Assembly: GCA_016927935.1 (NCBI GenBank)
Contig: JAFGLS010000083.1
Span: forward strand, 1 to 64,000
DNA from: Syntrophaceae bacterium
GTDB lineage: Bacteria; Desulfobacterota; Syntrophia; Syntrophales; Smithellaceae
Length of the DNA: 64,000 nucleotides
Direction: 5' to 3'
Under the pieces are notes generated by a model that saw only the letters and a list, made by a program, of their open reading frames with translations, ran no database searches and was not told the DNA's origin. Each line of letters opens with the position of its first letter. Positions within the stretch are counted from its first letter, which is position 1. Shown here in pieces: positions 26,949 to 55,835 of the stretch. The position numbers and the translations under genes were made by a program.

Positions 26949-28355
26949 TCAGACGGTACGGCGCCCGAGTGGCAGAATTTTGAACAGAGTTAAAAACGCA
27001 TACCGTGGAAGTTGAAAGAATTGCGGATGGTAGATGACCAAATTCAATAGTCTTTTGTAATTAAAATAGAAGCGAAGATAGGCGTGTCGAATGACTTTCC
27101 TCAAATCACTATCCGACATGGACGAAATGTTGAGTGTGTTAGTGTAATAAAAGGTCATCTTTTTCGGGCTAACGGCGTCATTTATATTTTGAGCAGCCAT
27201 TTTCGCAAGTTCAGTCCCTGCAAATGGTGTGACAAGATAGAATGCTGCACGGTGTAGGACGGAGCGAACTGCAAAATCGACTGTAGCAGAGGCTTCTTCA
27301 TAAGACTCCGTCGGAAACCCGATCATGAAGAAACCGGAAGTGTAAATTCCCACGTCAACAGCCGCGTTGATGGCAAGAATTGCCTTGTCGATATTCAGAT
27401 TTTTATGAATCATTTTCTGCAGCCGCGGACTGGATGTCTCGATAGCGAAACTAACTGACACTGTCCCCGCTTGCTTGAAAAACAACATGTCTTCCGGTTC
27501 AAGCATGTCAGCCCGCAAGCCGTTTGCAAAATGCAATTTGACACCACATAATCTGTTTTGAATGCCTGTAAGTACTGCATACATCCTTTCCCTGTCCACA
27601 TTGAAGCAGTCATCAATTATCTCAAATTCCTTGAATCCATATCGGAAACGGAGTTCTTCCATCTCTGCCAATACCGACTGGGCCGTCCTCTTTCTGAAGA
27701 TCTTGCCCATTGTCCGATGGCAGTAAGCGCACTGGAAAGGGCAGCCGCGTGAAGTGACTATTGCCATATAATGCCTACAGCCTACGACGGCCCCCGAAGG
27801 CATTTTTGCGTAAAGTTTATGATCCAATAAATCCCAAGCGGGAAACGGAAGCGCGTTTAGTTCATCTTCGGTAAGATAACGCCCCGGATTGATTTTTATC
27901 CGCCCATCAACTACGGATGCCGTGCCGGCTATCGATTCTGTGGGAAGTCCTTTATTTAAGGCCTCCACCAGTTCCGGAAATACAAGTTCTCCTTCGCCAA
28001 TAACAACAAAGTCCGCTCCAAAGGTCTTTAAAGACTCTCCCGGATTAGCTGAAGGCCAGGGACCGCCAAATGTAACAGGCACATCTGGCAATATCCCTCG
28101 TATGATGCGCATGATTTCTCTTGTTTGCTCAAGCTCTGTAACAATGATACTGACACCGATGAAGTCCGGTTTCCATCTGGTGATGGTCCGTCTGAGCACA
28201 CGAAGGTCTCTGCAATCACTACCGCAATCGTGAATTTTTACTTCATGTCCGGCTTTTCTCAAAACAGCTCCGATGTACATGAGTCCCATCGGCTGTGTTA
28301 TTGTATAAAATTCGGGCAAATAGAATCTTGGTTTGATCAGCAGTATTTTCGACAT
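26949..28355 (-). CDS. B12-binding-type radical SAM protein (paralogue A)
   Basis: 468 aa. Residues 1-140: Rossmann-like cobalamin-binding-type domain (QPMGLMYIGAVLRKAGHEV, FGGPWPSANP, ADFVVIGEGE); no DxHxxG, as is common among radical SAM members. Radical SAM core starts at TSRGCPFQCAYC with cluster cysteines 205, 209 and 212; FEIIDDCFNVD and FMIGFPTESYEEA are later barrel strands. The last about 100 residues are basic and aromatic. Family precedents include C-methylation and ring-forming or ring-contracting chemistry on unactivated carbon. Same length and motifs as the proteins at 30739, 48324 and 50117. First gene of the minus unit leading into the glycan locus. Confidence 0.88.
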   Translation of the reverse strand: MSKILLIKPRFYLPEFYTITQPMGLMYIGAVLRKAGHEVKIHDCGSDCRDLRVLRRTITRWKPDFIGVSIIVTELEQTREIMRIIRGILPDVPVTFGGPWPSANPGESLKTFGADFVVIGEGELVFPELVEALNKGLPTESIAGTASVVDGRIKINPGRYLTEDELNALPFPAWDLLDHKLYAKMPSGAVVGCRHYMAIVTSRGCPFQCAYCHRTMGKIFRKRTAQSVLAEMEELRFRYGFKEFEIIDDCFNVDRERMYAVLTGIQNRLCGVKLHFANGLRADMLEPEDMLFFKQAGTVSVSFAIETSSPRLQKMIHKNLNIDKAILAINAAVDVGIYTSGFFMIGFPTESYEEASATVDFAVRSVLHRAAFYLVTPFAGTELAKMAAQNINDAVSPKKMTFYYTNTLNISSMSDSDLRKVIRHAYLRFYFNYKRLLNLVIYHPQFFQLPRYAFLTLFKILPLGRRTV

Positions 28356-28691
28356 TTGAATTGAGACCCATTCAAATATTACTTAAATAGCAACTTTCTT
28401 ATACTCATTTTTGTAAATTTCTTCCAAGAGGTATAATTTTACATTAAAAAAGGCAAGAAATCTATCACAGGGCTAAGATCGCCCTTAATATATCCAAATA
28501 TTTGATATATTATCCGATATTATCAATACGCTTAATCTTGTGATTATTTATGTACCAAGAAAAATATTACAATTCTTTGACATTTTTACAGGTTGATATT
28601 TATAGAAAAATATTTAATACACAAAAATGAGAAAATGCTAATTTGCATAAATTAGCTTGCAGTTTATTTAGATTTTTAAGGTTGTCGCTAA
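28356..28691. other. Divergent gene-free stretch with candidate promoter
   Basis: 336 bp, very AT-rich, between the minus-strand radical SAM gene and the plus-strand GT-C gene. TTGACA (28577-28582), 17 nt, TTATAG (28600-28605) could be a plus-strand promoter with a leader of about 85 nt. A small AGGGC/GCCCT stem lies near 28471. Nothing else recognisable. Confidence 0.4.
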
Positions 28692-30605
28692 GTGAAAAAT
28701 AAATTTTATTCCGGCCAGCTCTTTCCATTCTTTATATCTCTTTGTATTTTTGTTATTGCCGCTGTATTTGGATGGCTCAAGCTTCGCTACGGTTTTAATT
28801 TTACAGATGAAGGCTGGGCAATGACAGAAGCATGGCGTATTGCCGCGGGTGATGATTTTTTTAGAGACAAAATTTTAGGAGCGTTGAGAATGGCTCCGCT
28901 TATCAATACGCCAATTTTCAAGTATTATCCGGGAATAACATTGCTTGGCTTCCGTAAATTGCAATTCTTTCTTACTATTATTTCACTGCTGTTTTTAAGT
29001 TTTTCATTATACAAAATCAGTAAAGAATTCTGGTATTCACCGATAATATTTTCTCTTTTTGCATTCACAGGCCTTGACCCCACAGGAATGATGTCAAATC
29101 TCAGTTATTTCACCTATACTCATTTATTTATCACCCTTCATTTGGCATTTTTAATCATGGGACTGATTCAACAATCCATTTTATGGAAAAGGATTTTATT
29201 TATCATAGCAGGGATATTTTTATGGCTGATAAGTTTCAGCTTGCTGCATATGAGTCTTAGCTTTCTATCCGCAATATTATTATTTCTTATATTTAAAAAA
29301 TACAAAATAGGATTTCCTAATTTTAATTTAAAGGATCTCTATTTTATCATTGCACCATTTCTATTATTCTGGACAATCTTTTTTTGTATTTATGGAAATC
29401 TTTTTATTCGGCAAATAATTACAGAAGCTTATGGATTTCTTATCACAACAACTCATCAACCAGGATATCTTCTCTCCATAAATTGGGATATTTCGAAACG
29501 TATCATAATTATACTTCCATTTATTGTTACATTCTTATTCAGTACAAAGATATCAAAAAAAGTACCACTAATTTGTGTCTTATCAATACTTGCAGTATTG
29601 ATGTATGAGATTATTGATACGTCGTTGTTCGGCTTAATAAAACCTTTCTACCGTGGGTGGTATAATAGCTGGGCAGGCAGGCCTTTGTGGTTTGCCGCGT
29701 TAATGATATCGTTATATTTTTTACTTTTATGTTATTTTATACTCAAGGTTTTTAAAAAAGATTCCTGGAATAATTATGAATTATCCGGATTTGTCTTTTT
29801 TATTTACGGAATAATTTCGGCAGCAAACGCAAATTTCTTTTCTGCCTTGGGTGCTATTGTTGTGCTGTATTCTTCTATACCTGCCATAGCTGCAACGACC
29901 TGTATAATTTTATCTATAGAAACAATTAAAAAGCGTCTATATCTTGTCCAATTGGTTATTTTATTTCTGTTTTTCGCACCCTTTTACTATACAACGGCTT
30001 GGTCTGACTGGAAATTTACCTTTTTCGATGTGGCTCCTGAAGAAGCAAATGCTGAAATAGAAAATGGATTCGGTAGAGATATCAAAACGAATCAAATCTA
30101 TAAAAATTTATATGACTGGATTAGCACAACAGCCAAAATTTACTCGAAAAAGGATGATTATATAATCTCCTATGTTAACTCCCCCATGGTGTATATGATT
30201 GCCCGGCGCAGACCAGCTCTTGAAATATCTCATATTGATTTTAATGAATTGTCGCACGATCATCCTAATACAGCTATAGATTTATTATCATTCTTGCATC
30301 TAAAAAATCTACCGGAGAATTGGAATCCTTATGACCTCGGCATAGAGTTAATGAAAAGACGCGGACGTAGACCACAAATGGTTTACGTGTTTGAAGCAGT
30401 ACCAGTTTTAGTTCCCGTCACTTTGGGAAAATCTGAATACCTTTGGCAAGCAAAACAGTTTTCATTTTCATCTGACGATCCGATTTCCCGATATGTACTT
30501 AATAACATGACATTAGTGGATAGTTTCACGATTTCAAAAGAATTTTCACTTCAGGTAAGATGTTTTATTGATAATTCGTCTGCGGTCACTGCACTGAAAA
30601 AATAA
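28692..30605 (+). CDS. Large GT-C-like membrane protein (A)
   Basis: 637 aa, GTG start with AAGG upstream. About ten or more membrane segments in the first 440 residues, then a soluble C-terminal domain of about 190 residues. After the first helix comes FNFTDEGWAMTEAWRI, with DEGW at 39-42, matching the acidic loop that binds metal and polyprenyl-phosphate sugar in GT-C enzymes. Probably transfers a sugar on the outer face of the cytoplasmic membrane. The C-terminal part contains YDLGIELMKRRGRRPQ and is not recognised. Stands alone, plus strand, between two paralogous minus-strand radical SAM genes. Confidence 0.65.
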   Translation: MKNKFYSGQLFPFFISLCIFVIAAVFGWLKLRYGFNFTDEGWAMTEAWRIAAGDDFFRDKILGALRMAPLINTPIFKYYPGITLLGFRKLQFFLTIISLLFLSFSLYKISKEFWYSPIIFSLFAFTGLDPTGMMSNLSYFTYTHLFITLHLAFLIMGLIQQSILWKRILFIIAGIFLWLISFSLLHMSLSFLSAILLFLIFKKYKIGFPNFNLKDLYFIIAPFLLFWTIFFCIYGNLFIRQIITEAYGFLITTTHQPGYLLSINWDISKRIIIILPFIVTFLFSTKISKKVPLICVLSILAVLMYEIIDTSLFGLIKPFYRGWYNSWAGRPLWFAALMISLYFLLLCYFILKVFKKDSWNNYELSGFVFFIYGIISAANANFFSALGAIVVLYSSIPAIAATTCIILSIETIKKRLYLVQLVILFLFFAPFYYTTAWSDWKFTFFDVAPEEANAEIENGFGRDIKTNQIYKNLYDWISTTAKIYSKKDDYIISYVNSPMVYMIARRRPALEISHIDFNELSHDHPNTAIDLLSFLHLKNLPENWNPYDLGIELMKRRGRRPQMVYVFEAVPVLVPVTLGKSEYLWQAKQFSFSSDDPISRYVLNNMTLVDSFTISKEFSLQVRCFIDNSSAVTALKK

Positions 30606-30624
30606 ATTAAATCTTAACTCAACG

Positions 30625-30643
30625 AATCCGAGACGGATTTTTC
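30625..30643 (+). terminator. Weak intrinsic terminator
   Basis: Stem AATCCG / CGGATT with a 3-nt loop followed by TTT, 20 nt after the stop codon of the plus-strand membrane protein gene and ahead of a convergent radical SAM gene. Short stem, so only moderately convincing. Confidence 0.4.
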
Positions 30644-30738: not shown

Positions 30739-32142
30739 TTAGGTCTTCACCATTGATTTCAATGTTATTAATGAGTTTCGCAAAAGAAAAAGACGATTGG
30801 GATGAATCATCATCACCCTCCATACTCTTTTGAGATTCAAATAGAAGCGCCTATATGCATATCGGAATACTTCCCTGTATTCACTATCCGACATTGCCGA
30901 TACATTAAAATAAACTTTAAGGAAGTTTGAATAAATTGGGTCTATTTCATGATATTTTTCTATTTGTTTATCTGATAACATTTCTGCCAGTTCAGTTCCC
31001 GGAAATGGTTTAGGATTTAAAAAGTAAGCACGGTGAAGAGAAGAATGAGCTGCAAATTCCACTGTGGCAGACGCTTCCTCATAAGTTTCTGTCGGAAAAC
31101 CAATCATGAAGTAACCGGAAGTATAAATTCCTGCCTTGACAGCTGCATTGATGATAAGAAAGGCTTTATCGATGTTCAGATTCCGGCGAATCATCTTTTG
31201 TAACCGCGGGCTGGCGGTTTCGATGGCGAAATCAACCGACACTGTACCCGCCTGCTTAAAAAGCAGCATGTCTTCCGGTTCAAGTATATCAGCCCGCAGG
31301 CCATTTCTGAAATGCAGTTTGACATCACCGAACCTATCCCGAATACCGGCAAGTATCGCGTACATTCTTTCACGGTCAATATTAAAACAGTCATCAAGTA
31401 TAATAAATTCTTTAAATCCATATTTAAAACGAAGTTCTTCTATTTCGGCAAGAACAGATTCCACCGATCGCTTTCTGAATACTTTACCCATCGTCTTATG
31501 GCAATAAATACAGTGATAAGGACATCCACGAGAAGTAAGGATTAACATAGTGGGAGGTCTAGAACCTAAATTAATGACAGAAGGCGCTTTTGAATACAGG
31601 TTATGATCCAATAAATCCCACGCTGGGAAAGGAAGCAAATTAAGTTCATTTTCGCTAAGGTATCGTGAAGAATTTATCTTTATAGTACCATTAACCAGAG
31701 AAGCTGTCCCTGCTACAGAATCCGTTGGAAGTTTTTTATTTATCGCATCTATCAGGTTGGGAAAAACAAACTCTCCTTCACCTATTACAACAAAATCAGC
31801 CTCTAATATATTGATTGCTTCTCCCGGATCTATCGAAGGCCATGGACCACCTAAAGTTACCGGAACATCAGGAATAATCTCGCGGATGATTCCTATTATT
31901 GTTTTGGTTCGAGTAACCTCCGTGACTATTATACTAATACCAATAAAATCAGGTTTCCATTTCATTAATATCTGTCTGAGCACATGAAAGTCATTATTAT
32001 CTATGGCACTATCATGAATTTTTACTTCATGACCGGTTTTTTTCAAAACGGCACCGATATACATCAGCCCCATAGGTTGAATTACATATTTATTCTCCAT
32101 CATCTCCAGAAAACTTGGCTTAATCAGCAGTATCTTTGACAT
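30739..32142 (-). CDS. B12-binding-type radical SAM protein (paralogue B)
   Basis: 467 aa, same architecture as the protein at 26949. The N-terminal domain has IQPMGLMYIGAVLKK and LGGPWPSIDPGEA; the cluster motif TSRGCPYHCIYC gives Cys207, Cys211 and Cys214; IILDDCFNID and FMIGFPTETYEEA follow. The N-terminus differs by a one-residue insertion (SFLEMMENKY) and it is the most divergent of the four. Upstream, 32152-32180 holds an AT-only 9-bp hairpin in its leader. The methyltransferase at 32286 precedes it on the same strand, so the two may be co-transcribed. Confidence 0.87.
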   Translation of the reverse strand: MSKILLIKPSFLEMMENKYVIQPMGLMYIGAVLKKTGHEVKIHDSAIDNNDFHVLRQILMKWKPDFIGISIIVTEVTRTKTIIGIIREIIPDVPVTLGGPWPSIDPGEAINILEADFVVIGEGEFVFPNLIDAINKKLPTDSVAGTASLVNGTIKINSSRYLSENELNLLPFPAWDLLDHNLYSKAPSVINLGSRPPTMLILTSRGCPYHCIYCHKTMGKVFRKRSVESVLAEIEELRFKYGFKEFIILDDCFNIDRERMYAILAGIRDRFGDVKLHFRNGLRADILEPEDMLLFKQAGTVSVDFAIETASPRLQKMIRRNLNIDKAFLIINAAVKAGIYTSGYFMIGFPTETYEEASATVEFAAHSSLHRAYFLNPKPFPGTELAEMLSDKQIEKYHEIDPIYSNFLKVYFNVSAMSDSEYREVFRYAYRRFYLNLKRVWRVMMIHPNRLFLLRNSLITLKSMVKT

Positions 32143-32285: not shown

Positions 32286-33113
32286 CTATTTTTCCGCCCG
32301 AAAAAGATAATAATATTTGAATTTTTCACTGAACAAATATTTAAATGTTTCGATGGATCTCTCAAATCTTTTAATCTCACATTTACCAAATACTTTTATC
32401 AAAACGTTTTTGTTCCTGATAATATTTTCATGCCAAGAATTAAACGTTGTTTCCGTTTCTTTACTTACATCTCTGAAAAATATATTTTTAAAACTGGATT
32501 TACGCAATAATTCGATGTATCGTTGAGGTGTTTCTGTTATTCCTCCTCCGAATGTTTTTATCATGTTAACCAGCTGAAAAATATTTTTAAACTTAAAAAC
32601 AAAATTGTATTTTTCACTTCTCAAAACATCCGAAAGAAGAACAAACCCGCCCGGTCTCAATAATCTGTAGCATTCATCGAACAGCAACGCTTTGTTCAGT
32701 GCCAAATGAGATGATTCCATCATCCATATTACATCAAAGCTTTTATCGGGAAATCCGGTAGAAGTCATATCCGCAACTATGAAACGAATCTTCCCATTGT
32801 ATTTGTTTCCCTGAATTCTGCTGTTGGCTAACTCAACTCCCTTCCTACTTATGGAAATACCTGTTATGTCCGAGCCAAATTTATCATAAAGGTAAACAGC
32901 AGGGGCCCCAATGCCACACCCCGCATCTAATATCTTTGTTTTCGGACCAAGTTTGCACAAAGAAGCAAGTTCATCAATAAGGTTATCGGTCGCTCTATCA
33001 AGATTATCTTCGAGTGTTTTGAAATATCCGATATGAAAATTATCACCAAAAATATATCTCCATCCTTCAGTTATCGAATCGTAATGGTATCCCACATCGA
33101 AATATTTTTTCAT
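32286..33113 (-). CDS. SAM methyltransferase, UbiE/sterol-MT-like (paralogue A)
   Basis: 275 aa. Motif I ILDAGCGIGAP (61-71), acidic strand ITGISISRKGVELA, VIWMMESSHL, LLRPGGFVLLSDV. The opening FDVGYHYDSITEGWRYIFGD resembles C-methyltransferases acting on prenyl, sterol or tocopherol-like lipids and cyclopropane-synthase relatives. Paralogous to the protein at 39462 (shared YDSIT-GWRYI-GDNFH-GYFK). Divergent from a SPASM radical SAM gene. A lipid-like acceptor is inferred. Confidence 0.82.
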   Translation of the reverse strand: MKKYFDVGYHYDSITEGWRYIFGDNFHIGYFKTLEDNLDRATDNLIDELASLCKLGPKTKILDAGCGIGAPAVYLYDKFGSDITGISISRKGVELANSRIQGNKYNGKIRFIVADMTSTGFPDKSFDVIWMMESSHLALNKALLFDECYRLLRPGGFVLLSDVLRSEKYNFVFKFKNIFQLVNMIKTFGGGITETPQRYIELLRKSSFKNIFFRDVSKETETTFNSWHENIIRNKNVLIKVFGKCEIKRFERSIETFKYLFSEKFKYYYLFRAEK

Positions 33114-33373: not shown

Positions 33374-34504
33374 ATGAGCATAATCGACAAAGAAGGACTT
33401 CTTTCTTTTTTAGTTCGGGCCTTTCGTTTATCCAGTTTTTTTTATTTCCTTAAGAAACCTCTTCTCTTACTTAGAATTGCTAAGGTAGCTTTTTACTATG
33501 CCGTTCTGAAGAAAAACATACTATGGAAAGCGGATCTTTCTCTTCTCGGTGATTGTAATCTTAATTGTCAACATTGTTTTGCACACAATTTTAAGACTAC
33601 CGCGCAGAAAAAATATAATAAAAAAGAACTTTCGACGGTAGAGATAATCAGTGTAATCAAGGAATGCTCTTCAATGGGAATATTTAATTTTGACTTTCAA
33701 GGTGGAGAGGTTTTATTGCATTCAGATTTGGAAACAATAATTAAGGCTACTAAACCATCTCGTTCATATATAAATATTGTTACCAATGGGATACTCTTTA
33801 ATGAAGATTGGGCTGTAAAACTAAAAAGATGGGGAGTTGATGAAATTTCTTTTAGTCTCGATAGTTACATTCCGGAAGAACATGATAATCTTCGTAATAA
33901 ACCTGAGGTGTTTTCAAAATTGATGAAAGCTATTAAAATAGCGCAGAAATATAAATTTCAAATATTAATTTTTACAACGGTAACACATAAAACGTTGCGT
34001 TCCGAGGGAGTAAGGTGTTTGCACAATTTTACTCTCAAGAATAATTTCATCCAGCAACTTTTTATTGGAATTCCCATTGGCAAATGGCTTGGCAGAACAG
34101 ATATTCTGATTAATGATGATGATCACAAATACATGGAGAAATTGGCTAAAAATACTAAATATAATATCCGTCGTGATATGACCCCTCATTTCTTTCGTTC
34201 AGGATGCCCGGCTGTGAAAGAAAGTTTCTATATGACTCCTTATGGAGATATATTACCTTGTCCTTTTATACATATTTCTCTGGGCAACATCCGAGATCAT
34301 TATTTAAAAGACATTATTGAAAGAGCATTAACAATTGAAGAATTCAAAAATTATTGTCCCGTTTGCCTTATAGGAGAAGACAAGGGGTTTATCAATAAGT
34401 ATGGCAAAAAGTTGTTCCAATGTGAAGAATCCCCCATAAATGGCGATGAAATATTGGATTTCAAAACTAATTTGCCTCATCGTTTAACTCCCTTGGTTAA
34501 TTAA
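33374..34504 (+). CDS. Radical SAM/SPASM protein
   Basis: 376 aa. An N-terminal hydrophobic/basic segment (about 12-55) precedes the cluster motif CNLNCQHC (Cys61, 65, 68). QGGEVLLHSDL takes the GGE place, followed by NIVTNGILFN and ISFSLDSYIPEEHD. The C-terminal SPASM-like region has SGCPAVKESF, GDILPCPF and YCPVCLIGED, giving enough Cys for an auxiliary cluster. Such enzymes modify peptides, sugars or lipids; no precursor peptide gene is visible next to it. It lies 7 nt before the methyltransferase gene at 34512. A truncated copy is at 37606. Confidence 0.85.
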   Translation: MSIIDKEGLLSFLVRAFRLSSFFYFLKKPLLLLRIAKVAFYYAVLKKNILWKADLSLLGDCNLNCQHCFAHNFKTTAQKKYNKKELSTVEIISVIKECSSMGIFNFDFQGGEVLLHSDLETIIKATKPSRSYINIVTNGILFNEDWAVKLKRWGVDEISFSLDSYIPEEHDNLRNKPEVFSKLMKAIKIAQKYKFQILIFTTVTHKTLRSEGVRCLHNFTLKNNFIQQLFIGIPIGKWLGRTDILINDDDHKYMEKLAKNTKYNIRRDMTPHFFRSGCPAVKESFYMTPYGDILPCPFIHISLGNIRDHYLKDIIERALTIEEFKNYCPVCLIGEDKGFINKYGKKLFQCEESPINGDEILDFKTNLPHRLTPLVN

Positions 34505-34511: not shown

Positions 34512-35561
34512 ATGGTTAAAAATAAGTATCTGGAATTAAATCAACGAAATAGCGAAATTAATAAATTTAAAGTCCACTACGATTACAGCTGTGTAATTTG
34601 TAATGCAAAGACCCCCTCTCAATTTATCGGTGGTGTTTCCGAACATGAATATTCCCAAACCACTTCTCTTATTTTTCCTGTTTACCGATGCTGTACATGT
34701 CAATTAACCTATCTTTATCCGCGGCCGGATGTTTCAGAATTAAAAACAATTTATCCTCCTGATTACTATTCATATAATTTATCCATGAATAAGCCAGAAA
34801 CAGAATCAAATAAAAGATCTTTTGTAAAAACAATTTGGTTCTGGATGAATTTACGCACCTATCGTACCAAGTTATCTCCATTTATAAAACAACCAGCCGA
34901 AAGAACTCTCAAAATTTTAGATATTGGCTGCGGTACGGGAGCTCAATTAGACAACATGAAAAAACTTTTCCCTTACAGCGAAACTCACGGCGTTGATATA
35001 AACAAACTTGCTCTCGAAAAAGCAGAAAAAGGTGGCCATAAATTATATTATGGACGTTTTGAAGACGTAAATCTTCCTTGTGGATATTTTGATGTTGTGC
35101 ATTCAACGCATGTGATCGAACATGTTGAACGCCCGGACATATTCGTGCAAAAATGTTTAGATTTATTATCCCCTAACGGCATATTGCTTATTGAAACTCC
35201 TAACACAAATTCACTTGATTATAAAATATTCAAAAAGGGACATTGGGGAGGATACCATGCTCCAAGGCACTGGTACTTATTCAATATTGAAACGTTTCGT
35301 AATTTAGCCAAACGGTTCAATGCACAAATCATATATTATGCTCCTTATAACACGGCTGTATTCTGGAACTGGAGTTGTCACTCGATCTGTAAAGCTTTAT
35401 TTGGAAAAAAAATTGCTGACAGATTATTTCCGCCCATAACTATTTTTTACGGAGGATTACATTCCTTCATTATATTGAGTTTTTTTTCAATTTTAGAAAG
35501 AATAATATTAGGACTATTTAATAAAGCTAATTCCATGAGGATTATATTAAAGAAAATTTAG
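34512..35561 (+). CDS. Methyltransferase with N-terminal zinc-ribbon
   Basis: 349 aa. Residues 27-63 hold two cysteine pairs (CVIC and CCTC), a zinc-ribbon typical of the sugar C-methyltransferase-like family found in antibiotic and O-antigen loci. YPPDYYSYN follows, as in many such proteins. The SAM domain has ILDIGCGTGAQ, THGVDINKLALEKA and HVIEHVERPDIF. The end is hydrophobic and may attach to the membrane. Starts 7 nt after the radical SAM gene and is surely in its operon. Sugar or aglycone methylation is plausible. Confidence 0.8.
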   Translation: MVKNKYLELNQRNSEINKFKVHYDYSCVICNAKTPSQFIGGVSEHEYSQTTSLIFPVYRCCTCQLTYLYPRPDVSELKTIYPPDYYSYNLSMNKPETESNKRSFVKTIWFWMNLRTYRTKLSPFIKQPAERTLKILDIGCGTGAQLDNMKKLFPYSETHGVDINKLALEKAEKGGHKLYYGRFEDVNLPCGYFDVVHSTHVIEHVERPDIFVQKCLDLLSPNGILLIETPNTNSLDYKIFKKGHWGGYHAPRHWYLFNIETFRNLAKRFNAQIIYYAPYNTAVFWNWSCHSICKALFGKKIADRLFPPITIFYGGLHSFIILSFFSILERIILGLFNKANSMRIILKKI

Positions 35562-46223: not shown

Positions 46224-46238
46224 GATCATGATTTTATA

Positions 46239-48182
46239 TTAATGCAGACGCAATAATTTTTTAATCGATGGATCAATCACAGCACCCATTTGTCCAGCAG
46301 TTTGCACATCTTGTCTCGCTTCAGCCAATCGGCCCAATTTATAATATGCAATGGCTCTATTTACATAATAAGAAGGATTTGTGCCGTTTAATAAAATAGC
46401 CTTGTTAAAATCAGCAAGCGCGTATTGGAACTTACCGAGACGAAGATAGCATACCCCCCTGTTATTGATTATATCGGAATTGGCCGGATCGGATTGATGG
46501 CAAAGATTGAAATCCCGAATGGCTGTTTCATATTCACGCAACTGCATGTGCGTAAGAGCCCTTTTATAATAGTTATCCAAATTGAATGGATCAAATTCGA
46601 TGGCTTTGTTAAAATCAGCAAGTGCCTTTTCATATTGCCCCAATTTAATATAAATAGAACCTCGATGTCTAAAGGAATCTGATAAAGGCAATTTTAATAA
46701 ATTACCCCTCGCATCGAAGGGATGTATAATCTCTATATAACGGTTATAATCCTGAAGAGCTTTCTTTGTCTCACCTCTTTCAAGATAAATAACACTCCTG
46801 TTAAAATAGGCGTTTGAACATTCCGGATTGATTTTTATTGCCATGTTGAAATCTTCCCAAGCCTTGTCCGATTGATTATTTTTATACCAATAGTTACCCC
46901 TGTTAAGATGCGCTGTGGCTATTTTGTGCGGATACTTTTTAATCACATAAGTCCAAAGTGTCTCGCTGTTTCCCCATGCTGGAATATATTTTATCGTCAT
47001 TATGCTGTATACGACTAGAAACGCTATTGCAAAACACGTAAAATAATTGCTGTATGCTGAAAACCTTTTTGCTAATTTTTGCATACTCATGGCAATTATA
47101 AAAAACAGCCCTATATAGGCGACATAAGTATAATGGTCGTTAAGAAAAGCTGTCTCACTTCCCTTGAAGCACATAAGTTGGAGGAAAATATTAAAGCTAA
47201 AAAAAAGCAGACCAAAAGTGATGAACTTATATTTTCGCCATTTAACAAGCGCACCTATAAATATTAATACTGCTATCACTCCACCAACAAAATGTTGTGT
47301 TTGAAGTGATGAGGGAGTTGGGTATAAGATAGAAGTCGCATACGGTATAATTGACTTTAAAACATAAACACTGTAGGCATAACCGCCCAGCAAAACTTGC
47401 TCTAATAAACCAAATACATTTACAATGGATTTACTATTAGTTGTAACAAAAGCATTTTTAATGAAAAATGTCGCGCCCAAAAAACCTATAACAAGAGATA
47501 ACGCAAAAAATATTATTTTCTCCAAGAAAACTTTCAATCCGATTTTTCTATTAAAATACCAATCCAACAAAAACAGCACAAAAGGCAATACTACAGCTTG
47601 AGTCTTCGAAAGCAGAGCTAATACAAAGAAAAAGAACGTCAGACACAATAGTCCTTCCCTTTCGCGAGAAATATAGCGAATGTAGATTAATAAAGCTGCT
47701 AGATAAAAGAGTGCACAAAGCACGTCTTTGCGTTCAGACACCCATGCTACGGATTCCACACGCATGGGATGAATGCCAAAAAGCAATGCTGCAAAGCCAC
47801 TCCACCATATAGAAAGACCTATCCTGCGAAAAAAAAACAAGACCAGAGCTGTACAAAAAAGATGTAAAATAAAATTGTCAAAGTGATAAAGAAATGGCCT
47901 ATCCTTTACAAGCTTCCATTCAAGAGCGAAAGAAAAAATCACCAGAGGATTATAAGTATTATAATCAGCGGGTTTAATGAAAATATCTTGAAAGCATGCT
48001 TCTCTGACCATGGGATTATCGTACACTAATAAATTATCATCCCAATTTGTCCAATCTAATTTCAAACTGCCGGAAAATACGAGAGCCGTAATAAACAGCA
48101 CAAGGAAAAGCGTGAAATAACTATTTTTCCCTGTAGAGTCTTTATTCTCTGCCTCTTTCCTAGTAAACAATGCTTTTTTCAT
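46239..48182 (-). CDS. GT-C-like membrane protein with C-terminal TPR repeats (TMTC-like)
   Basis: 647 aa. Residues 20-420 contain about ten membrane segments; the first periplasmic loop has TNWDDNLLVYDNP (Asp48, Asp49), and HPMRVESVAWVSERKDVL is the signature of the TMTC/DUF1736-type family. Residues about 435-645 are tetratricopeptide repeats (NRGNYWYKNNQSDKAWEDFN, NRGVCYLRLGKFQYALADFN). Eukaryotic TMTC proteins are O-mannosyltransferases of this same layout, so protein or lipid glycosylation from a polyprenyl donor is likely. It leads the unit with the donor-type glycosyltransferase gene. Confidence 0.82.
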   Translation of the reverse strand: MKKALFTRKEAENKDSTGKNSYFTLFLVLFITALVFSGSLKLDWTNWDDNLLVYDNPMVREACFQDIFIKPADYNTYNPLVIFSFALEWKLVKDRPFLYHFDNFILHLFCTALVLFFFRRIGLSIWWSGFAALLFGIHPMRVESVAWVSERKDVLCALFYLAALLIYIRYISREREGLLCLTFFFFVLALLSKTQAVVLPFVLFLLDWYFNRKIGLKVFLEKIIFFALSLVIGFLGATFFIKNAFVTTNSKSIVNVFGLLEQVLLGGYAYSVYVLKSIIPYATSILYPTPSSLQTQHFVGGVIAVLIFIGALVKWRKYKFITFGLLFFSFNIFLQLMCFKGSETAFLNDHYTYVAYIGLFFIIAMSMQKLAKRFSAYSNYFTCFAIAFLVVYSIMTIKYIPAWGNSETLWTYVIKKYPHKIATAHLNRGNYWYKNNQSDKAWEDFNMAIKINPECSNAYFNRSVIYLERGETKKALQDYNRYIEIIHPFDARGNLLKLPLSDSFRHRGSIYIKLGQYEKALADFNKAIEFDPFNLDNYYKRALTHMQLREYETAIRDFNLCHQSDPANSDIINNRGVCYLRLGKFQYALADFNKAILLNGTNPSYYVNRAIAYYKLGRLAEARQDVQTAGQMGAVIDPSIKKLLRLH

Positions 48183-48323: not shown

Positions 48324-49736
48324 TCAGGAGGATCGGCGTTTTTTCGGCAAAGTCCAGATTACAATAATAAACGCATACCATAGAAGAGAAAAAGCTTTTG
48401 GATGATAGATCACAAGTTGTATCAGTCTTTTCGGATTTAAATAGAAGCGCCAGTATGCGCGTCGAAATACTCTTTGCAAATCCCTGTCCGACATTGCCGA
48501 AACATTGAAGCTGCTTGTAAAATAAGTCGTCTCCCGAGGATTCATGGCATTATCTTTTCTTTTGAGAATATCCGCGGCTATTTCTGCGAGTTCGGTACCC
48601 GCAAATGGCGTAACCAGCATGAACGATGCACGGTGCAAGGTAGAGCGGTCGGCAAATTCAACGGTGGCAGAGGCTTCTTCGTATGATTCGGTCGGAAACC
48701 CGATCATGAAATAACCCGTAGAGTAAATTCCTGCCCGGACAGCCGCGTTGATGGTAATGATTGCCTTATTGATATCAAGATTCTTGTGAATCATTTTCTG
48801 CAGCCGCGGGCTGGATGTCTCGATAGCAAACCCGGCGGAAACCGTACCTGCTTTTTTGTAAAGGGACATCTCCTCCGGTTCCAGCATGTCGGCCCGAAGA
48901 CCATTGGAAAAATGCAGCTTGACGCCGCCCAGCCGCTCTCGAATACCGGTAAGTATCTCGTACGTTCTTCCACGGTCAATGTTGAAGGAATCATCAATAA
49001 TCTCGAATTCCCTGAATCCATGTCGCCAGCGAAGTTCTTCCATCTCTGCCAATACTGACTCCGCTGTCCTTTTTCTGAAGATTTCACCCATTGTCCGATG
49101 GCAGTAGGAACACTTAAATGGACAACCTCGTGAAGTCACTATTGCCATATAAGGTCTACAGCCCACGCTGGCTCCTGAAGGCATTTTTGCGTATAATTTA
49201 TGATCTAATAATTCCCAAGTCGGAAAAGGAAGCGCATTTAATTCATCTTCGGTAAGATAGCGCCCCGGATTTATTTTTAACTGCCCGTCAACCATGGAAG
49301 CCGTTCCGGAAATTGATTCTGTGGAAAGTCCTTTATTTAAAACATCCACCAACTGGGAAAATACCAGTTCCCCTTCACCAATGACTACAAAGTCGGCTCC
49401 TAATATCTTTATTGATTCTTCCGGATTGGCTGAAGGCCAAGGGCCCCCAAAGGTCACGGGCACGTTTGGAAGGATTTGACGTATGATTCCCATGATTTTT
49501 TTTGTCTTCTCAATCTCTGTGACAATTATACTGATACCGATAAAATCCGGTTTCCAGTCTTTAATTGTTCGTCTGAGAATATTGAGATTTTTATAGTCTT
49601 TGACACAATCATGAATTTTCGGTTCATGTCCGGCATTTTTTAAAGCAGCACCGATATACATAAGCCCCATAGGCTGCGTTATTGTCTGAAACTCGGGAGC
49701 AAGAAATCTTGGTTTAATCAGCAGAATCTTAGACAT
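48324..49736 (-). CDS. B12-binding-type radical SAM protein (paralogue C)
   Basis: 470 aa, very close in sequence to the protein at 26949 (MSKILLIKPRFLAPEFQTIT; FGGPWPSANPEES; TSRGCPFKCSYCHRTMG with Cys205, 209, 212; FMIGFPTESYEEASATVEF). It has a few extra residues around ILKRKDNAMNP. The C-terminal about 90 residues, rich in Arg, Tyr and Trp, are the least conserved among the four copies and may carry substrate or partner specificity. Monocistronic in appearance: 141 nt before the next minus gene and a repeat-bearing gap upstream. Confidence 0.88.
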   Translation of the reverse strand: MSKILLIKPRFLAPEFQTITQPMGLMYIGAALKNAGHEPKIHDCVKDYKNLNILRRTIKDWKPDFIGISIIVTEIEKTKKIMGIIRQILPNVPVTFGGPWPSANPEESIKILGADFVVIGEGELVFSQLVDVLNKGLSTESISGTASMVDGQLKINPGRYLTEDELNALPFPTWELLDHKLYAKMPSGASVGCRPYMAIVTSRGCPFKCSYCHRTMGEIFRKRTAESVLAEMEELRWRHGFREFEIIDDSFNIDRGRTYEILTGIRERLGGVKLHFSNGLRADMLEPEEMSLYKKAGTVSAGFAIETSSPRLQKMIHKNLDINKAIITINAAVRAGIYSTGYFMIGFPTESYEEASATVEFADRSTLHRASFMLVTPFAGTELAEIAADILKRKDNAMNPRETTYFTSSFNVSAMSDRDLQRVFRRAYWRFYLNPKRLIQLVIYHPKAFSLLWYAFIIVIWTLPKKRRSS

Positions 49737-50116: not shown

Positions 50117-51523
50117 TCAGGCGTTGCAGCGTATCGGCGATAGAATTCTGATTAAAAGAAAAAATGCAGACCGCAAAAGTGAAAAAATTTGTGGATGATA
50201 AGCAGTCAATTTGAATAGTCTTTTCGGATATAAATAAAAGCGAATATAAGCGAGGCGAAAAACCTTCTGTAATTCACGGTCTGACATTGCCGAAATGTTG
50301 AGTGTGCTGGTGTAAAAATAGGTCATCTTTCGCGGGTTAACGGCAACATTTATATTTTGTCCAGCCATTTCAGCAAGTTCTGTTCCTGCAAATGGTGTGA
50401 CAATAAAGAAATATGCGCGATGTAGGGCTGAACGAACAGCAAACTCAACTGTAGCATACGCCTCTTCGTAAGTTTCTGTCGGGAACCCTATCATGAAAAA
50501 ACCGTTAGAGAGAATTCCTGCCTTGACAGCAGCGTTGATGGCAAAAACGGCCTTGTCAATATTCAGATTCTTGTGAATCATCTTTTGCAACCGCGGACTG
50601 GAAGTCTCAATGGCGAAATTAACCGATACTGTTCCTGCCTGCTTAAAAAGAAACATGTCTTCTGGTTCAAGCATGTCAGCACGAAGGGCGTTTGGAAAGT
50701 GCAATTTAACATCACCCAACCTGTCACGAATACCGGTAAGAATTGCGCGCACCCTTTCACTGTCCAAATTGAAACAGTCATCAATTATCTCAAATTCTTT
50801 GAATCCATGACGGAAACGTAGTTCTTCCATTTCTGACAACACCGACTGAACTGACCTCTTTCTGAAAACCTTGCCCATTGTCTGATGACAGTATACGCAT
50901 TTGAATGGGCAACCTCGGGAAGTGACTATTGTCATGTAAGGCCTGCTGCCCACACAGGCAAATGACGTTGATTTTGCGTATAATTTATGATCTAATAATT
51001 CCCAAGCCGGAAAAGGAAGCGCATTTAATTCTTCTTCGGTAAGATAATGTCCTGGATTGATTTTCACCTCTGATTTAACTATTGAAGCCGTTCCGGAAAT
51101 TGAGTCTGTTGAAAGTCCTTTGTTTAGGATATCTATCAATTTCGTAAATATCAGTTCCCCTTCACCCATAACAACAAAATCGGCTCCAAATGTCCTTATG
51201 GCTTCTTCGGGATTGGCTGAAGGCCACGGACCACCGAATATAACAGGTACGTTCGGCAGGATATGACGTATGACCTTCATTATCTCTTTTGTTTGCTCAA
51301 GTTCAGTGGCAATTAAGCTGATGCCGATAAAATCAGGCTTCCAATCCCCAATTATACGCGTGAGAATCTTGAGATTTTTGTAGTCACTGGCACAGTCATG
51401 AATTTTGGGATCATGTCCTTTCCCTTTCAGCACGGTACCAATATACATCAGCCCCATAGGATGCGTTATTTGCAGAAAATTGGGTATAAGGAATCTTGGT
51501 TTGATCAGTAATATCTTTGACAT
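50117..51523 (-). CDS. B12-binding-type radical SAM protein (paralogue D)
   Basis: 468 aa, fourth member of the set. THPMGLMYIGTVLKGKGH, FGGPWPSANPEEA, TSRGCPFKCVYCHQTMG (Cys205, 209, 212), EIIDDCFNLDSER, FMIGFPTETYEEAYATVEF. Close to paralogue C in the N-terminal half and to A near NINVAVNPRKMTYFYTSTLN. All catalytic cysteines are kept. It lies 44 nt downstream of the GT-C gene at 51568 and may be co-transcribed with it. Confidence 0.88.
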   Translation of the reverse strand: MSKILLIKPRFLIPNFLQITHPMGLMYIGTVLKGKGHDPKIHDCASDYKNLKILTRIIGDWKPDFIGISLIATELEQTKEIMKVIRHILPNVPVIFGGPWPSANPEEAIRTFGADFVVMGEGELIFTKLIDILNKGLSTDSISGTASIVKSEVKINPGHYLTEEELNALPFPAWELLDHKLYAKSTSFACVGSRPYMTIVTSRGCPFKCVYCHQTMGKVFRKRSVQSVLSEMEELRFRHGFKEFEIIDDCFNLDSERVRAILTGIRDRLGDVKLHFPNALRADMLEPEDMFLFKQAGTVSVNFAIETSSPRLQKMIHKNLNIDKAVFAINAAVKAGILSNGFFMIGFPTETYEEAYATVEFAVRSALHRAYFFIVTPFAGTELAEMAGQNINVAVNPRKMTYFYTSTLNISAMSDRELQKVFRLAYIRFYLYPKRLFKLTAYHPQIFSLLRSAFFLLIRILSPIRCNA

Positions 51524-51567
51524 CGGAAAAAGTCTTTATTTATGTAATTATATAATTCACCGGAACA

Positions 51568-53208
51568 TTAAGATTGTTTATTATTAGCATATTTTACTGG
51601 CGCATAGATGAATAAATAACCGCCCCCCAACCATGGTATCTCGTCCGGCCACCGTTTACAAAAAATCTCCTTATAACCAGGAAAGTCTAAACGTTTATAA
51701 GAAAGTATTACAGCTTTTTGTCGGTCTATTAATCTTGCCTGTGCAGAGACATCATATAGTCCGGGTAAATTTAGCGGCGCAATCTGTATGCGAGGCAGGT
51801 CATTCATTACAATGGCTACTACATCAAATGTATAATTAAGAATATAACATGAATTCTTAAATGGCTCTACTGAATCATATACTTCCTGATAGAAGTCATT
51901 ATACTCTTTAGTCAATAGTTTTCCTTTAAATATTCCAATATTTTTATTGGTTACTCCGTTACAAAACAAAACATCCTTTCTCCATGGGTAATATGCTGAA
52001 CTTGTTTTAGTAAATAAAATACTGCTCGACAAGAATAAACATAGAAGAATACCGGATATGATTATTAGACATTTAACTGGTTTTATAGCGCGAATGAAGA
52101 GTCTATAAAAAACGAACACGACGACCCCTATGCCCAGAGACGCTCCATTGACCAAACGGACTGTTTCATAAATGTGTACCGAATTCAAAAATCCAAAGAT
52201 GGCGATAAGACTAACCGCAACAATATTATAACGATTATAATCAGATTTTATAGGGTTACCAGATACTTTCCCAATAATTTCACGAGCAAGTACAAACACA
52301 CAGATAATTAGTATTAGTGAGAAGAACTTACCTCGAAAACCGAAAGCGTAACTACTTGTATCTAAAAGGAAAATAAAGGATAAAAAGTTCAAATAGGTAG
52401 TAACATTATCCAGTCCTGACCTTAGTTTAATTAACGTCTGTGTTTGGTAAAAAAAAGTCCCAATGCTGGAATTCATGCCAAGATAAATAAAAAATATTAT
52501 TAAAGGAATAACAATGCCTGCACTCACGATTCCGATTTTTTCTATGATGTGTTTTTTTATGTCAGGAAAAACAAAGAACTCCCAGGCAAGCAAAATTACA
52601 AACGGCGGAATAATTGCAATAGCGGAAGAATAACGGGAAAGCACTGCCATACTAAGAAAGAAGCCTGCTAAGAATCCATTAAAACGATTTTGGGAATATT
52701 TTAAGAAGAAAATCAGCGCCAGTAGTTGAAAAGTATAAGCAAAGTAATTAGCAGCAGGATAAATAATATAAGGATGAATAAGAAAAAGGAGAAGAACGGA
52801 AATAAAAGCAAGGCTTTTCTTTAAGAATTTGTGAAAAATGCGATAGGAAAGAAGCAACGTCAAAGAATAAAATAGGCCGGTAATAATTCCCACACTCATT
52901 AATCTTTCACCAAAAAAGATTAATGCGATACTTTGGAGTAATGTATAGATATATCCATAGAAAATAATTACTTCAGAATGCGGTATCGCTCCTCTTTTTA
53001 TATCCAACGCGGTGATGTAAGCCCAACCCCAATGGTGATTATCGCAATTAACCATTGATTCAACAAAACTGCAGCAAAAGCTTGCTATGCAGATAATTAT
53101 CACCAGCAAATCGAAAATATTGAATCTGTAGAAAAACAAGCAAGGAAAATGATTAGATTCAGCTTCGGCCGATTTATTTTTACTGAAAAATAATTGCCTT
53201 AGTACCAT
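51568..53208 (-). CDS. GT-C-like membrane protein (B)
   Basis: 546 aa with about ten to twelve membrane segments. The first extracytoplasmic loop holds NCDNHHWGWAYITALDIKRG (Asp56), placed like the catalytic Asp of GT-C enzymes; the next loop GAIPHSEVIIFYGYIY is typical of the same fold. A soluble part of about 110 residues closes the protein. Probably an ArnT/PMT-like glycosyltransferase using a polyprenyl-linked donor. Upstream of radical SAM paralogue D on the minus strand. Confidence 0.68.
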   Translation of the reverse strand: MVLRQLFFSKNKSAEAESNHFPCLFFYRFNIFDLLVIIICIASFCCSFVESMVNCDNHHWGWAYITALDIKRGAIPHSEVIIFYGYIYTLLQSIALIFFGERLMSVGIITGLFYSLTLLLSYRIFHKFLKKSLAFISVLLLFLIHPYIIYPAANYFAYTFQLLALIFFLKYSQNRFNGFLAGFFLSMAVLSRYSSAIAIIPPFVILLAWEFFVFPDIKKHIIEKIGIVSAGIVIPLIIFFIYLGMNSSIGTFFYQTQTLIKLRSGLDNVTTYLNFLSFIFLLDTSSYAFGFRGKFFSLILIICVFVLAREIIGKVSGNPIKSDYNRYNIVAVSLIAIFGFLNSVHIYETVRLVNGASLGIGVVVFVFYRLFIRAIKPVKCLIIISGILLCLFLSSSILFTKTSSAYYPWRKDVLFCNGVTNKNIGIFKGKLLTKEYNDFYQEVYDSVEPFKNSCYILNYTFDVVAIVMNDLPRIQIAPLNLPGLYDVSAQARLIDRQKAVILSYKRLDFPGYKEIFCKRWPDEIPWLGGGYLFIYAPVKYANNKQS

Positions 53209-53329
53209 AAAAAATTCTCAGAAATTAATATTAAAGAACTATGACTCTTTCAGCGGTGTACCCGCATAATATCATTTGAAGTTGTTCTGCTATTTGATGA
53301 CTTATTAATGTCCGGTTGCAAAATAAATT

Positions 53330-54199
53330 TTATTGTATCCTTTCCAGGCGAATTCCATATGTCACCAAAAAAGTCAAAAAAGCAGAAGGATCGAAACTAC
53401 CGGTAATCCGATAAGTATAATTACTCATATCTATATTCATCACTGCCTTCTCTGAAGGACTTTCTCCACAATGAGATCTGTAGAAATTTACATTGTCTGA
53501 TGTAACATTTGGAGGTTTTGAGTTAAGTCGGGAACAATATTTTTCATATTCTAAAAAAATAATTCCAACTCTTTTTTTAAATTCATCAGAATGCAGTTCT
53601 GTATTTATTTCCGATTTTACTATCTTCGCGGGAGAACCTACCGCCAATGTATGAGCAGGAATAGAAGTCGTGACAGTTGAATTTGCTCCTATAATGGAAC
53701 GCCGGCCAATGGTTACCCCCGGCATTACAAAAACCCTCCAGGGAAGCCATACATGGTCTTCAATCGTTACCGGACCCTGCTCCACCGGACCATTATGCAG
53801 GAAATCAGACCAGGCACCATGTGTAAAAATAAGCGTATATGCTCCTATCCCAACCTGGTCACCTATGTAAACTCCCTCTCCCGGTTCAATCCAGCAAAAG
53901 GGAAAAATTCTGGAATGTTTGCCCATGTGAAAGCAGGCTCCCTTGAGAAGTTGCGCACGAATAATTACAAAAGGAGCAATTTGGGCATAATCTCCGATTT
54001 TGATTTCATCAGCCTGGAGAATACAAAATGGTGCAATCGAAGCACCTTTGCCTACAAAAATATTATTTGTCAATATGAACGAAAATATGTGAATTTTTGC
54101 CCCCGCTTCAACTTTTTGTCCCAGTAAGCGACGAAGTACCACATTGAAAGGATGCGGAACGAAAAAAAATACTAATGCTCCAATAATTTTTTTTATCAT
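53330..54199 (-). CDS. Left-handed beta-helix (hexapeptide) acyltransferase-like protein
   Basis: 289 aa from the ATG at 54199 (GGAG 11 nt upstream); the frame is open to 54268 but that part looks untranslated. An N-terminal hydrophobic helix is followed by hexapeptide repeats over about 50-200 (GASIAPFCILQADEIKIGD, IGDQVGIGAYTLI, VTIGRRSIIGANSTVTTSI) and the closing VGSPAKIVK typical of maltose/galactoside O-acetyltransferases. TFTHG-like LIFTHGAWSD may hold the catalytic His. Probably acylates a glycan or lipid headgroup. Divergent from the radical SAM gene at 54423. Confidence 0.78.
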   Translation of the reverse strand: MIKKIIGALVFFFVPHPFNVVLRRLLGQKVEAGAKIHIFSFILTNNIFVGKGASIAPFCILQADEIKIGDYAQIAPFVIIRAQLLKGACFHMGKHSRIFPFCWIEPGEGVYIGDQVGIGAYTLIFTHGAWSDFLHNGPVEQGPVTIEDHVWLPWRVFVMPGVTIGRRSIIGANSTVTTSIPAHTLAVGSPAKIVKSEINTELHSDEFKKRVGIIFLEYEKYCSRLNSKPPNVTSDNVNFYRSHCGESPSEKAVMNIDMSNYTYRITGSFDPSAFLTFLVTYGIRLERIQ

Positions 54200-54422
54200 A
54201 ACAAAAATATCTCCGTGACAGGTGCATTCAAGTTTAGAGTGTAAAACTTCCAGCTTGACAAAACACATCTTACGGTATCTGTTACTTTATATACTTTCTA
54301 TTATAATTATTTAGTTTTTTGACAACTAATGCAATATTTTTTTATTTCGCAAAAAATGTTGCCGGTTTCAAATATTTATCAAGATACAATAATATTAAAA
54401 CTTTTTGAAATAAACCATATCT

Positions 54423-55835
54423 ATGAACTTTGTTTTTATCAATCCACCGCGTAAAATTGCTAAAGATAATATATGGAGAATAATTAATGCCAAAATCCCT
54501 CCACTGGGCATAGCCACACTATCAGCAATATGGGATCAGCAAGGACACTCTTCACAAATAATAGATGCAGAAGCTTTACAATTAAGTGTTTCGGAGATCA
54601 TTGTAAGGATTAATCCTCATATAAATTTTGCTGGGATTACAGCAAATACCGTGGAAATTTCAACAGCTTTGGCGATTGCCCAAAGTATTCGCAAATCTTT
54701 TCCAAATACTAAAATAGTAATGGGTGGCGTACATCCCACCGTATTTCATAAAGAACTTATTCGGGATAAATGTTGTGACTTTGTTGTTAGGAACGAAGGT
54801 GAAATTCCAATTATAGAACTGGCCAAAGGTACCCCTTACAATCTTATTCCCAACCTTACCTGGCAAAACTCCGATAATGAAGTTGTTGTCAATGCTGATT
54901 GTAAAACATATGTAGATTTGGATGAACTACCTTTTCCCGCTTATGACAAACTACCAATGCATTTATATCACTCCGCTTTAGGTGCAACCAAAAGGGAACC
55001 ATCCATCGGGATGATGACTTCCCGTGGCTGTCCCGGTAAATGTACTTTCTGTTTTTCTGGAATGTTCGGAACTAAGATAAGATTTATGTCTTCCACAAAG
55101 ATAATTCAGCATATTAAACACTTACAACAAAACTATGGCATCCGGGAAATATCTTTCTATGATGATACATTCACTGCCAGCCCTGAAAATGTCACTGAAT
55201 TGTGTCATTTAATCATTGCTGAAAAAATTAAGCTTAGTTGGTCTTGTTTTGCCAGAATAGATTGTGTAAATCCGAATTTGCTTTTGTTAATGAAAAAAGC
55301 CGGCTGTCATCAAATTACATATGGTTTTGAAACCATTGATGAAAATATTTTAAAACATATAAATAAACGAACCAATTTGGGACAATTTCAGAACGCTCTT
55401 ACCTGGACCAAGGCGGCAAAAATTAACATACGTGGAACATTTATGCTGGGCAACCCCGGAGAAACGGAACTCAGTATGGAAAATACAATTAAATACGCAA
55501 AAAATTCAGCTATTCAATTTGCTCTATTTAATATTACTACCCCATATCCCGGAACAGCGATGTACAAAGACCTCCTGCAAAAAGACTTGCTTCTTCATCA
55601 AAATTGGGATCTTTATAATCTGGCGCAACCGGTGTTGAAATCAGATGTCATACCTGCTCAATTGGTAAAAAAATATTATTTTAAAGCTTATCGTGATTTT
55701 TATCTGCGACCTTTTTTCATTCTTCAGCATATTTTCGCCATAAGCACTTTTTCCGATTTTTTGACACACATTAAAGCAGGATTAAGAATCACCATCTTTC
55801 TGTTCAGAAATATTTTTTTAAAACGGGGGCTATAG
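54423..55835 (+). CDS. B12-binding-type radical SAM protein (seventh copy)
   Basis: 470 aa. B12-type domain: IPPLGIATLSAIWDQQGH, FAGITANTVEISTA, VMGGVHPTVFHKE, DFVVRNEGE. Cluster motif TSRGCPGKCTFC gives Cys203, 207 and 210. FYDDTFTASP, SCFARIDCVN, YGFETIDENIL and FMLGNPGETE follow; the C-terminal YFKAYRDFYLRPFFI echoes the tail of the protein at 44137. Distinct from the four-copy set. TTGACA at 54319 with a weak -10 might be its promoter. A 31-codon frame follows at 55837 (starting MMMRN) but has no recognisable domain. Confidence 0.87.
   Translation: MNFVFINPPRKIAKDNIWRIINAKIPPLGIATLSAIWDQQGHSSQIIDAEALQLSVSEIIVRINPHINFAGITANTVEISTALAIAQSIRKSFPNTKIVMGGVHPTVFHKELIRDKCCDFVVRNEGEIPIIELAKGTPYNLIPNLTWQNSDNEVVVNADCKTYVDLDELPFPAYDKLPMHLYHSALGATKREPSIGMMTSRGCPGKCTFCFSGMFGTKIRFMSSTKIIQHIKHLQQNYGIREISFYDDTFTASPENVTELCHLIIAEKIKLSWSCFARIDCVNPNLLLLMKKAGCHQITYGFETIDENILKHINKRTNLGQFQNALTWTKAAKINIRGTFMLGNPGETELSMENTIKYAKNSAIQFALFNITTPYPGTAMYKDLLQKDLLLHQNWDLYNLAQPVLKSDVIPAQLVKKYYFKAYRDFYLRPFFILQHIFAISTFSDFLTHIKAGLRITIFLFRNIFLKRGL

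Follow-up and report, generated by a model that had tools for sequence, protein, structure and literature searches.

A mosaic island of eleven radical SAM genes in a Syntrophaceae-type genome as a candidate surface-glycan locus

Results

Architecture of the radical SAM island

The window analysed here comprises the first 64,000 nucleotides of contig JAFGLS010000083.1 (GenBank assembly GCA_016927935.1) from a Syntrophaceae-type Desulfobacterota metagenome-assembled genome (MAG; 239 contigs, 91% complete, 5% contamination; G000 below) and contains, between positions 26949 and 55835, an island rich in radical S-adenosylmethionine (rSAM) genes (Table 1; genes are named by their first coordinate). 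All eleven open reading frames that a first, sequence-only reading had called intact rSAM genes in 29 kb are present at full length with one CxxxCxxC motif each, as judged from the open reading frame list, Pfam and a motif search. Seven of the eleven carry B12-binding (PF02310) and Radical_SAM (PF04055) domains above cutoffs (26949, 30739, 37867, 44137, 48324, 50117 and 54423) and are, as that reading had it, B12-type rSAM enzymes by domains and motif, with cobalamin binding and methyl transfer as predicted functions. Its classes for the other four needed revision. Of the two proteins taken as SPASM/Twitch-type, 33374 is the island's one SPASM-domain rSAM in Pfam, and 42955 is MoaA/HpnH-like, with Radical_SAM, a sub-threshold HpnH-type DUF3463 match and no SPASM match; in the Tes-like pair 40332 and 41680, the likeness to Tes (GDGT-MAS) and TrsS is confined to the rSAM core (approximately residues 70–245), accompanied by a weak zinc-ribbon match.

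Throughout the genome 64 Radical_SAM matches are found at E ≤ 1e-6, and 11 of these 64 lie inside the 29 kb of the island (hypergeometric P ~1e-14, assuming ~3,200 genes and ignoring duplicate copies). This density is far above chance placement, and duplication contributes to it. Four of the B12 enzymes (26949, 30739, 48324 and 50117) form one family, termed A1, with mutual identities of 62–73%, a kinship absent from the sequence-only reading; a fifth, partial A1 copy lies on contig C214 of the same genome. Similarly, methyltransferases 32286 and 39462 are a duplicated pair (63% identical), as are the Tes-like proteins 40332 and 41680 (69%). In a maximum-likelihood tree of 68 B12-rSAM proteins, 26949, 48324 and 50117 constitute a genome-specific clade (100/96) with 30739 separate inside A1, while 37867, 44137 and 54423 fall into three further deep lineages. 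Tandem duplication as the sole cause of the density is rejected because the seven B12 enzymes thus occupy four deep lineages. A second array in G000 (contig C167:17153–24620) holds five B12-type rSAM genes next to a GT-C-like (glycosyltransferase-C-like) protein, and their lineages differ from those of most window enzymes.

Pfam and motif scans also confirm the three methyltransferases, the thiamine diphosphate (ThDP) enzyme and the donor-type family 2 glycosyltransferase (GT2) reported among the rSAM genes. The GT-C-like membrane proteins were counted as four within the island; three lie inside (28692, 51568 and 46239, the last with tetratricopeptide repeats, TPRs) and two more flank it (25422 and 55927). 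These proteins have 7–11 transmembrane (TM) segments and early acidic motifs, with sub-threshold PMT_2 matches limited to 51568 and 55927, and their assignment as GT-C proteins is provisional. A hexapeptide-repeat acyltransferase (53330) had been overlooked. Of the heptose and galactofuranose genes said to abut the island, the heptose operon does adjoin it; the true UDP-galactopyranose mutase (15625–16752) is 10 kb off, and operon gene 23981 is only remotely mutase-like. The GC content, on which the first reading did not comment, is 31–42% in the island versus 46–52% at the window ends.

Table 1 Features of the island and its flanks in the window. TM, transmembrane segments; percentages are identities to the genomes or genes named.
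Feature	Coordinates	Strand	Evidence and occurrence
Heptose-type sugar-nucleotide operon: GT2 (19527), small methyltransferase (20308), GmhA-like SIS protein (20918), nucleotidyltransferase-HAD fusion (21612), NAD epimerase/dehydratase (22955), FAD amine-oxidase/mutase-like protein (23981)	19527..25444	-	Pfam; same order in G003, G015, G016 (65–77%), partly in G108 of another family (47–54%)
GT-C-like membrane protein, ~10 TM	25422..26900	-	Accompanies heptose operon; no Pfam match
B12-type rSAM, family A1	26949..28355	-	Pfam, motif, paralog comparison
GT-C-like membrane protein, early DE motif, ~11 TM	28692..30605	+	Two copies each in G004, G007, G008
B12-type rSAM, A1, most divergent copy	30739..32142	-	Pfam, tree
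SAM methyltransferase a, RebM/PEAMT/MitM-like	32286..33113	-	63% to 39462
rSAM/SPASM	33374..34504	+	Pfam; G007 orthologue 70%
Class I SAM methyltransferase	34512..35561	+	Pfam; G007 74%
ThDP carboligase-like enzyme	35589..37286	-	Intact GDG-N motif, N-terminal Glu; G007 74%
B12-type rSAM of non-A1 family	37867..39384	+	Pfam; distant homologs at glycan loci in other families
SAM methyltransferase b, paralog of 32286	39462..40298	-	Pfam
Tes/TrsS-like rSAM paralog 1, weak N-terminal zinc-ribbon match	40332..41600	-	Pfam, NCBIfam
Tes/TrsS-like rSAM paralog 2	41680..42936	-	Pfam, NCBIfam; in 2/395 phylum genomes
rSAM, MoaA/Tes-core-like, sub-threshold DUF3463	42955..44010	-	69–72% in G013, G015, G016
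B12-type rSAM, BchE/HpnJ-like	44137..45513	-	71–72% in G004, G007, G008
GT2, ArnC/GtrB (polyprenyl-phosphate sugar synthase) type, short	45510..46229	-	Matches catalytic part alone
Core: GT-C-like membrane domain with C-terminal TPRs	46239..48182	-	Pfam (TPR), identity matrix
B12-type rSAM, A1	48324..49736	-	Pfam, tree
B12-type rSAM, A1, structure modelled	50117..51523	-	Pfam, predicted structure
Core: GT-C-like membrane protein, weak PMT_2	51568..53208	-	Pfam, identity matrix
Hexapeptide-repeat acyltransferase	53330..54268	-	Pfam; no counterpart found in compared loci
Core: B12-type rSAM, HpnJ-like	54423..55835	+	One orthologue in each of seven other genus genomes
GT-C-like membrane protein, weak PMT_2	55927..57246	-	68–72% in G003, G013, G015, G016
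SDR dehydrogenase, right boundary gene	57639..58430	+	81–86% in four species
Conserved right flank: GTP-PEPCK and pyruvate-phosphate-dikinase-like gene (continues past window end)	59805..63815	-	Pfam, identity matrix

Mosaic exchange at a fixed site

Related loci occupy the same site, next to phosphoenolpyruvate carboxykinase (PEPCK), in seven congeneric species, with about ten rSAM-profile genes in G007, seven in G004 and G008, six in G015, four in G016 and G013, and two in G003. The flanking PEPCK and dikinase-like genes are 86–91% identical to their congeneric counterparts and the island genes 51–77%. By the identity matrix, 46239, 51568 and 54423 constitute a core present in most loci, around which modules are exchanged: the heptose operon with 25422 and 55927 (G003, G015 and G016), 28692 with 44137 and 45510 (G004, G007 and G008), and 42955 (G013, G015 and G016). 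A cassette of Tes-like rSAM, ThDP enzyme, methyltransferase and A1 genes, together with the SPASM rSAM, its methyltransferase and B12-rSAM 37867, is shared with G007 only, which has single copies of the CMAS-like methyltransferase and Tes-like rSAM that are duplicated in the window. The window thereby unites modules that are elsewhere split among different species, and across the compared genus loci the tree resolves at least ten deep B12-rSAM lineages. One site, a conserved flank and content that is mosaic between species, the marks of a polymorphic locus, are seen across all seven species. The island genomics, that is, its genes, families, shared site and mosaic exchange, is well supported, and the modules that recur in these congeners run counter to the outcome that the sequence-only reading had set beforehand as refuting its proposal, neighbours that never co-occur elsewhere. 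Elsewhere in G003, a second locus (L029–L030; C3, ~142–161 kb) combines GT-C, rSAM and GT2 genes, three GT-C-like proteins and two A1 B12-rSAMs with a two-subunit E1 alpha/beta ThDP enzyme. This independent ThDP type is further support for carbon-branching as a partner that recurs with these enzymes.

The distribution rests on GTDB genomes, and a single scan of genome contigs, which may omit close relatives, returned six loci; named sources of A1 relatives are Deltaproteobacteria bacterium HGW-Deltaproteobacteria-13 and Syntrophaceae bacterium UBA6255. Over 395 sampled genomes of the phylum, the Tes-like gene occurs in 2, relatives of 54423 in 7 and relatives of 37867 in 10, with the window's own genome and genus among those counted. 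Co-occurrence extends outside the genus to G108, of a different family, in which an operon of GmhA, kinase, HddC/HAD, epimerase and FAD genes lies beside two families of B12-rSAM, A1-type (41%) and 37867-type (42%), and a carbamoyltransferase. Further relatives of 37867 neighbour Wzx, Wzy_C, UDP-GlcNAc 2-epimerase, deacetylase and GT genes in G112, and a DegT aminotransferase, a GT2 and a PMT_2 protein in G345, while a relative of 54423 in G207 neighbours GT2, GT4, Asn-synthase and LPG_synthase_TM genes.

Additional glycan-type loci in G345 (L104) and G108 (L105, C76) place 37867-type B12-rSAMs beside aminotransferase, epimerase and SGNH/GDSL genes. In G069 (L097–L098; C1, 3.18–3.20 Mb) at least eight B12-type rSAM genes, mostly of 37867 type, stand in a row, one of them in a frame of 1126 aa that includes a membrane part, another apparently split.

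Comparison with characterized enzymes

None of the island rSAM proteins reaches an NCBIfam equivalog cutoff. The best scores against cutoffs are 214/578 bits for HpnJ, 187/481 for BchE, 145/360 for the ladderane rSAM and 89/650 for HpnR, and the Tes/TrsS equivalogs give 92–135 bits against 450/490 with no full-length match. Protein 37867 scores 299 against 575 bits for the Sden_1168-type P-methyltransferase; P-methylation is disfavoured for this enzyme, with phosphoenolpyruvate mutase (phosphonate supply) lacking a match in G000 and G007.

The predicted structure of A1 enzyme 50117 (pLDDT 83.7) aligns best with AprD4 (Z 29.1, rmsd 3.1 Å over 406 residues), tied with MgmA (Z 28.2), and TsrM, OxsB and CysS (Z 27.2, 27.1 and 26.9) match over most of its length. 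The substrate of AprD4 is an aminosugar, paromamine, and an A1 sugar substrate may be suspected, though fold similarity is no proof of it; AprD4 is not known to be cobalamin-dependent. The nearest solved structures to 32286 are 3bus, which we take to be the sugar O-methyltransferase RebM, phosphoethanolamine methyltransferase (PEAMT), MitM and a D-glucose O-methyltransferase. Both 32286 and 39462 match PF02353 (CMAS-like) above cutoff, yet Methyltransf_11 scores higher for 32286. The ThDP enzyme 35589 scores 368 bits against a cutoff of 538 for biosynthetic acetolactate synthase (TIGR00118), and 45510 is closest to ArnC, followed by the GtrB-type sll0501.

Discussion

On balance, the evidence favours a modular, lineage-variable locus of O-antigen or serotype-like kind, which would build a surface glycan whose sugars are radical-modified, branched by the ThDP enzyme, methylated and probably related to heptose. 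Families and context suggest a mechanism, and with it the putative substrate, reactions and use of cobalamin. The abutting operon would make a nucleotide-activated heptose-like sugar. Cytosolic rSAM enzymes would alter unactivated carbons of sugars by C-methylation, dehydration or rearrangement, the ThDP enzyme would branch a keto-sugar with an acyl group, and methylation or acylation would fall to the three conventional methyltransferases and to the hexapeptide enzyme. The ArnC/GtrB-type GT2 enzymes would then load the modified sugars onto polyprenyl phosphate, and after flipping, the GT-C array would pass them, on the outer side, to an acceptor that may be a glycan, a lipid or a protein. The FAD amine-oxidase/UDP-galactopyranose-mutase-like protein 23981 (23981–25444) stays with the heptose operon in more than one family (48% in G108) and might act on heptose as a furanose mutase or an oxidase.

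Several known systems provide partial parallels. GenD1 and GenK C-methylate aminoglycoside sugars (PMC4340712), and the ThDP enzyme YerE makes yersiniose (PMC4753412). The island resembles these cobalamin-dependent rSAM sugar enzymes, and the related diol dehydratase AprD4, in its B12-rSAM architecture, best fold matches and suspected sugar substrate; for GenK and GenD1 the likeness is one of architecture, not sequence comparison, and unlike AprD4 the island enzymes (~20% identity, below the AprD4 equivalog cutoff) are paralogs amplified within one surface locus. Similarly, 35589 is like YerE and the two-subunit enzymes of antibiotic pathways in its acetolactate synthase-like family, motif and sugar-gene context, and in the E1-type pair at a related locus; its likeness to YerE is by family and context, not direct sequence, and its keto-sugar substrate is putative. 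The Campylobacter jejuni HS:19 capsule cluster also contains a radical SAM metalloprotein gene among serotype-associated genes with a methyltransferase and a GT (PMC8743553), one gene there and an array here, the two being likened by description, not sequence. As in polymorphic O-antigen and capsule loci, there is a fixed site with a conserved flank, exchanged modules, low GC, and sugar-nucleotide and GT genes; unlike in them, GT-C-like proteins are present, no Wzx, Wzy or ABC gene is seen, and about half of the genes are radical SAM.

Some observations count against a surface-glycan locus. A Wzx, a Wzy, an ABC exporter and a ligase were all unseen among the Pfam-annotated genes of the island, although Wzy_C proteins occur elsewhere in the genome. 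The GHMP (heptose-7-phosphate-type) kinase, which in G003, G015, G016 and G108 sits between GmhA and the nucleotidyltransferase-HAD gene, is missing at 21505–21612 and was not found elsewhere in the 91%-complete G000, and the heptose route may therefore not be complete here. The GT-C call draws on the number of TM segments, early acidic motifs and PMT_2 matches below threshold; profile comparison among these proteins gave no clear links, and an AlphaFold model of 51568 from two sequences (pLDDT 39) was not used. At locus L047, moreover, two sister-family B12-rSAMs adjoin MlaD, acyltransferase and lipid-kinase (DAGK) genes.

This last context fits a product of another kind, the envelope lipid or glycolipid of the sequence-only reading, in which Tes-like enzymes would join or modify hydrocarbon chains, B12 enzymes would methylate or cyclise them and GT-C proteins would add a headgroup sugar. 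The rSAM core of the Tes-like pair and the nearest named models, among them BchE, HpnJ and the ladderane-linked rSAM, are in keeping with it, but the scores lie far under the equivalog cutoffs (for example 135 against 360 and 102 against 450), the island holds no acyl-carrier, acyl-CoA, fatty-acid or isoprenoid genes, and homologs elsewhere stand in polysaccharide loci (G207, G108 and G112). Of 17 genus genomes 16 lack squalene-hopene cyclase, and the CMAS-like methyltransferases best match sugar and small-molecule O- and N-methyltransferases, and therefore a pure lipid product is the weaker reading; we regard it as unlikely. A hopanoid pathway is rejected, with PF13243 giving no match in G000 and one weak match among the 17 genus genomes in a search whose control was positive in known genomes. 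As such, the envelope half of the earlier proposal stands and its lipid half, lacking lipid-building genes in the island and the cyclase in its genome, is weakly supported.

Less probable again is protein O-glycosylation, with 46239 moving unusual sugars to envelope proteins and the remaining genes building the donor. The joining of a GT-C-like membrane domain to C-terminal TPRs in a core gene of most loci, presumably comparable to the eukaryotic TMTC transferases, and the ArnC/GtrB-type donor enzyme suit such a role, but the membrane part of 46239 has no Pfam match, no dedicated acceptor protein was found, and similar multi-TM proteins are present at several rSAM loci that show no clear protein target. 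A diffusible specialised metabolite, aminoglycoside-like or another rSAM natural product, seems very improbable even with the natural-product enzymes AprD4, OxsB, TsrM, TokK and CysS as closest folds or sequences: nonribosomal peptide and polyketide synthases, precursors of ribosomally synthesized and post-translationally modified peptides and exporters are absent among the annotated genes of the window, the presence of several GT-C-like proteins and of GT2 donors points towards the membrane, and a fixed site with mosaic exchange is a usual mark of surface glycans.

Within the surface-glycan interpretation, a bolder and more tentative form, which we hold at less than even chance, is an undescribed glycan class in which a swappable rSAM repertoire would edit sugar carbon skeletons to C-methyl, branched, deoxy or ring-altered heptoses that are loaded onto polyprenyl phosphate, with a GT-C array replacing Wzx/Wzy. 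The open-access literature yielded no described pathway with this gene set, as the sequence-only reading had supposed, an absence that is itself no proof. If the surface-glycan interpretation is borne out, radical chemistry of the cobalamin type would reach beyond antibiotics, hopanoids and tetraethers into an exchangeable repertoire of surface glycans among syntrophic anaerobes, and the locus would point to envelope sugars possibly missed by standard glycan analysis. The island also offers many uncharacterised B12-rSAM families, and its 62–73% identical neighbours are natural sets for mapping substrate specificity.

Elsewhere in the window, the adjacent genes at 11830–12480 and 12911–13555 are paralogs with 53% identity, the second of which has a TetR domain.

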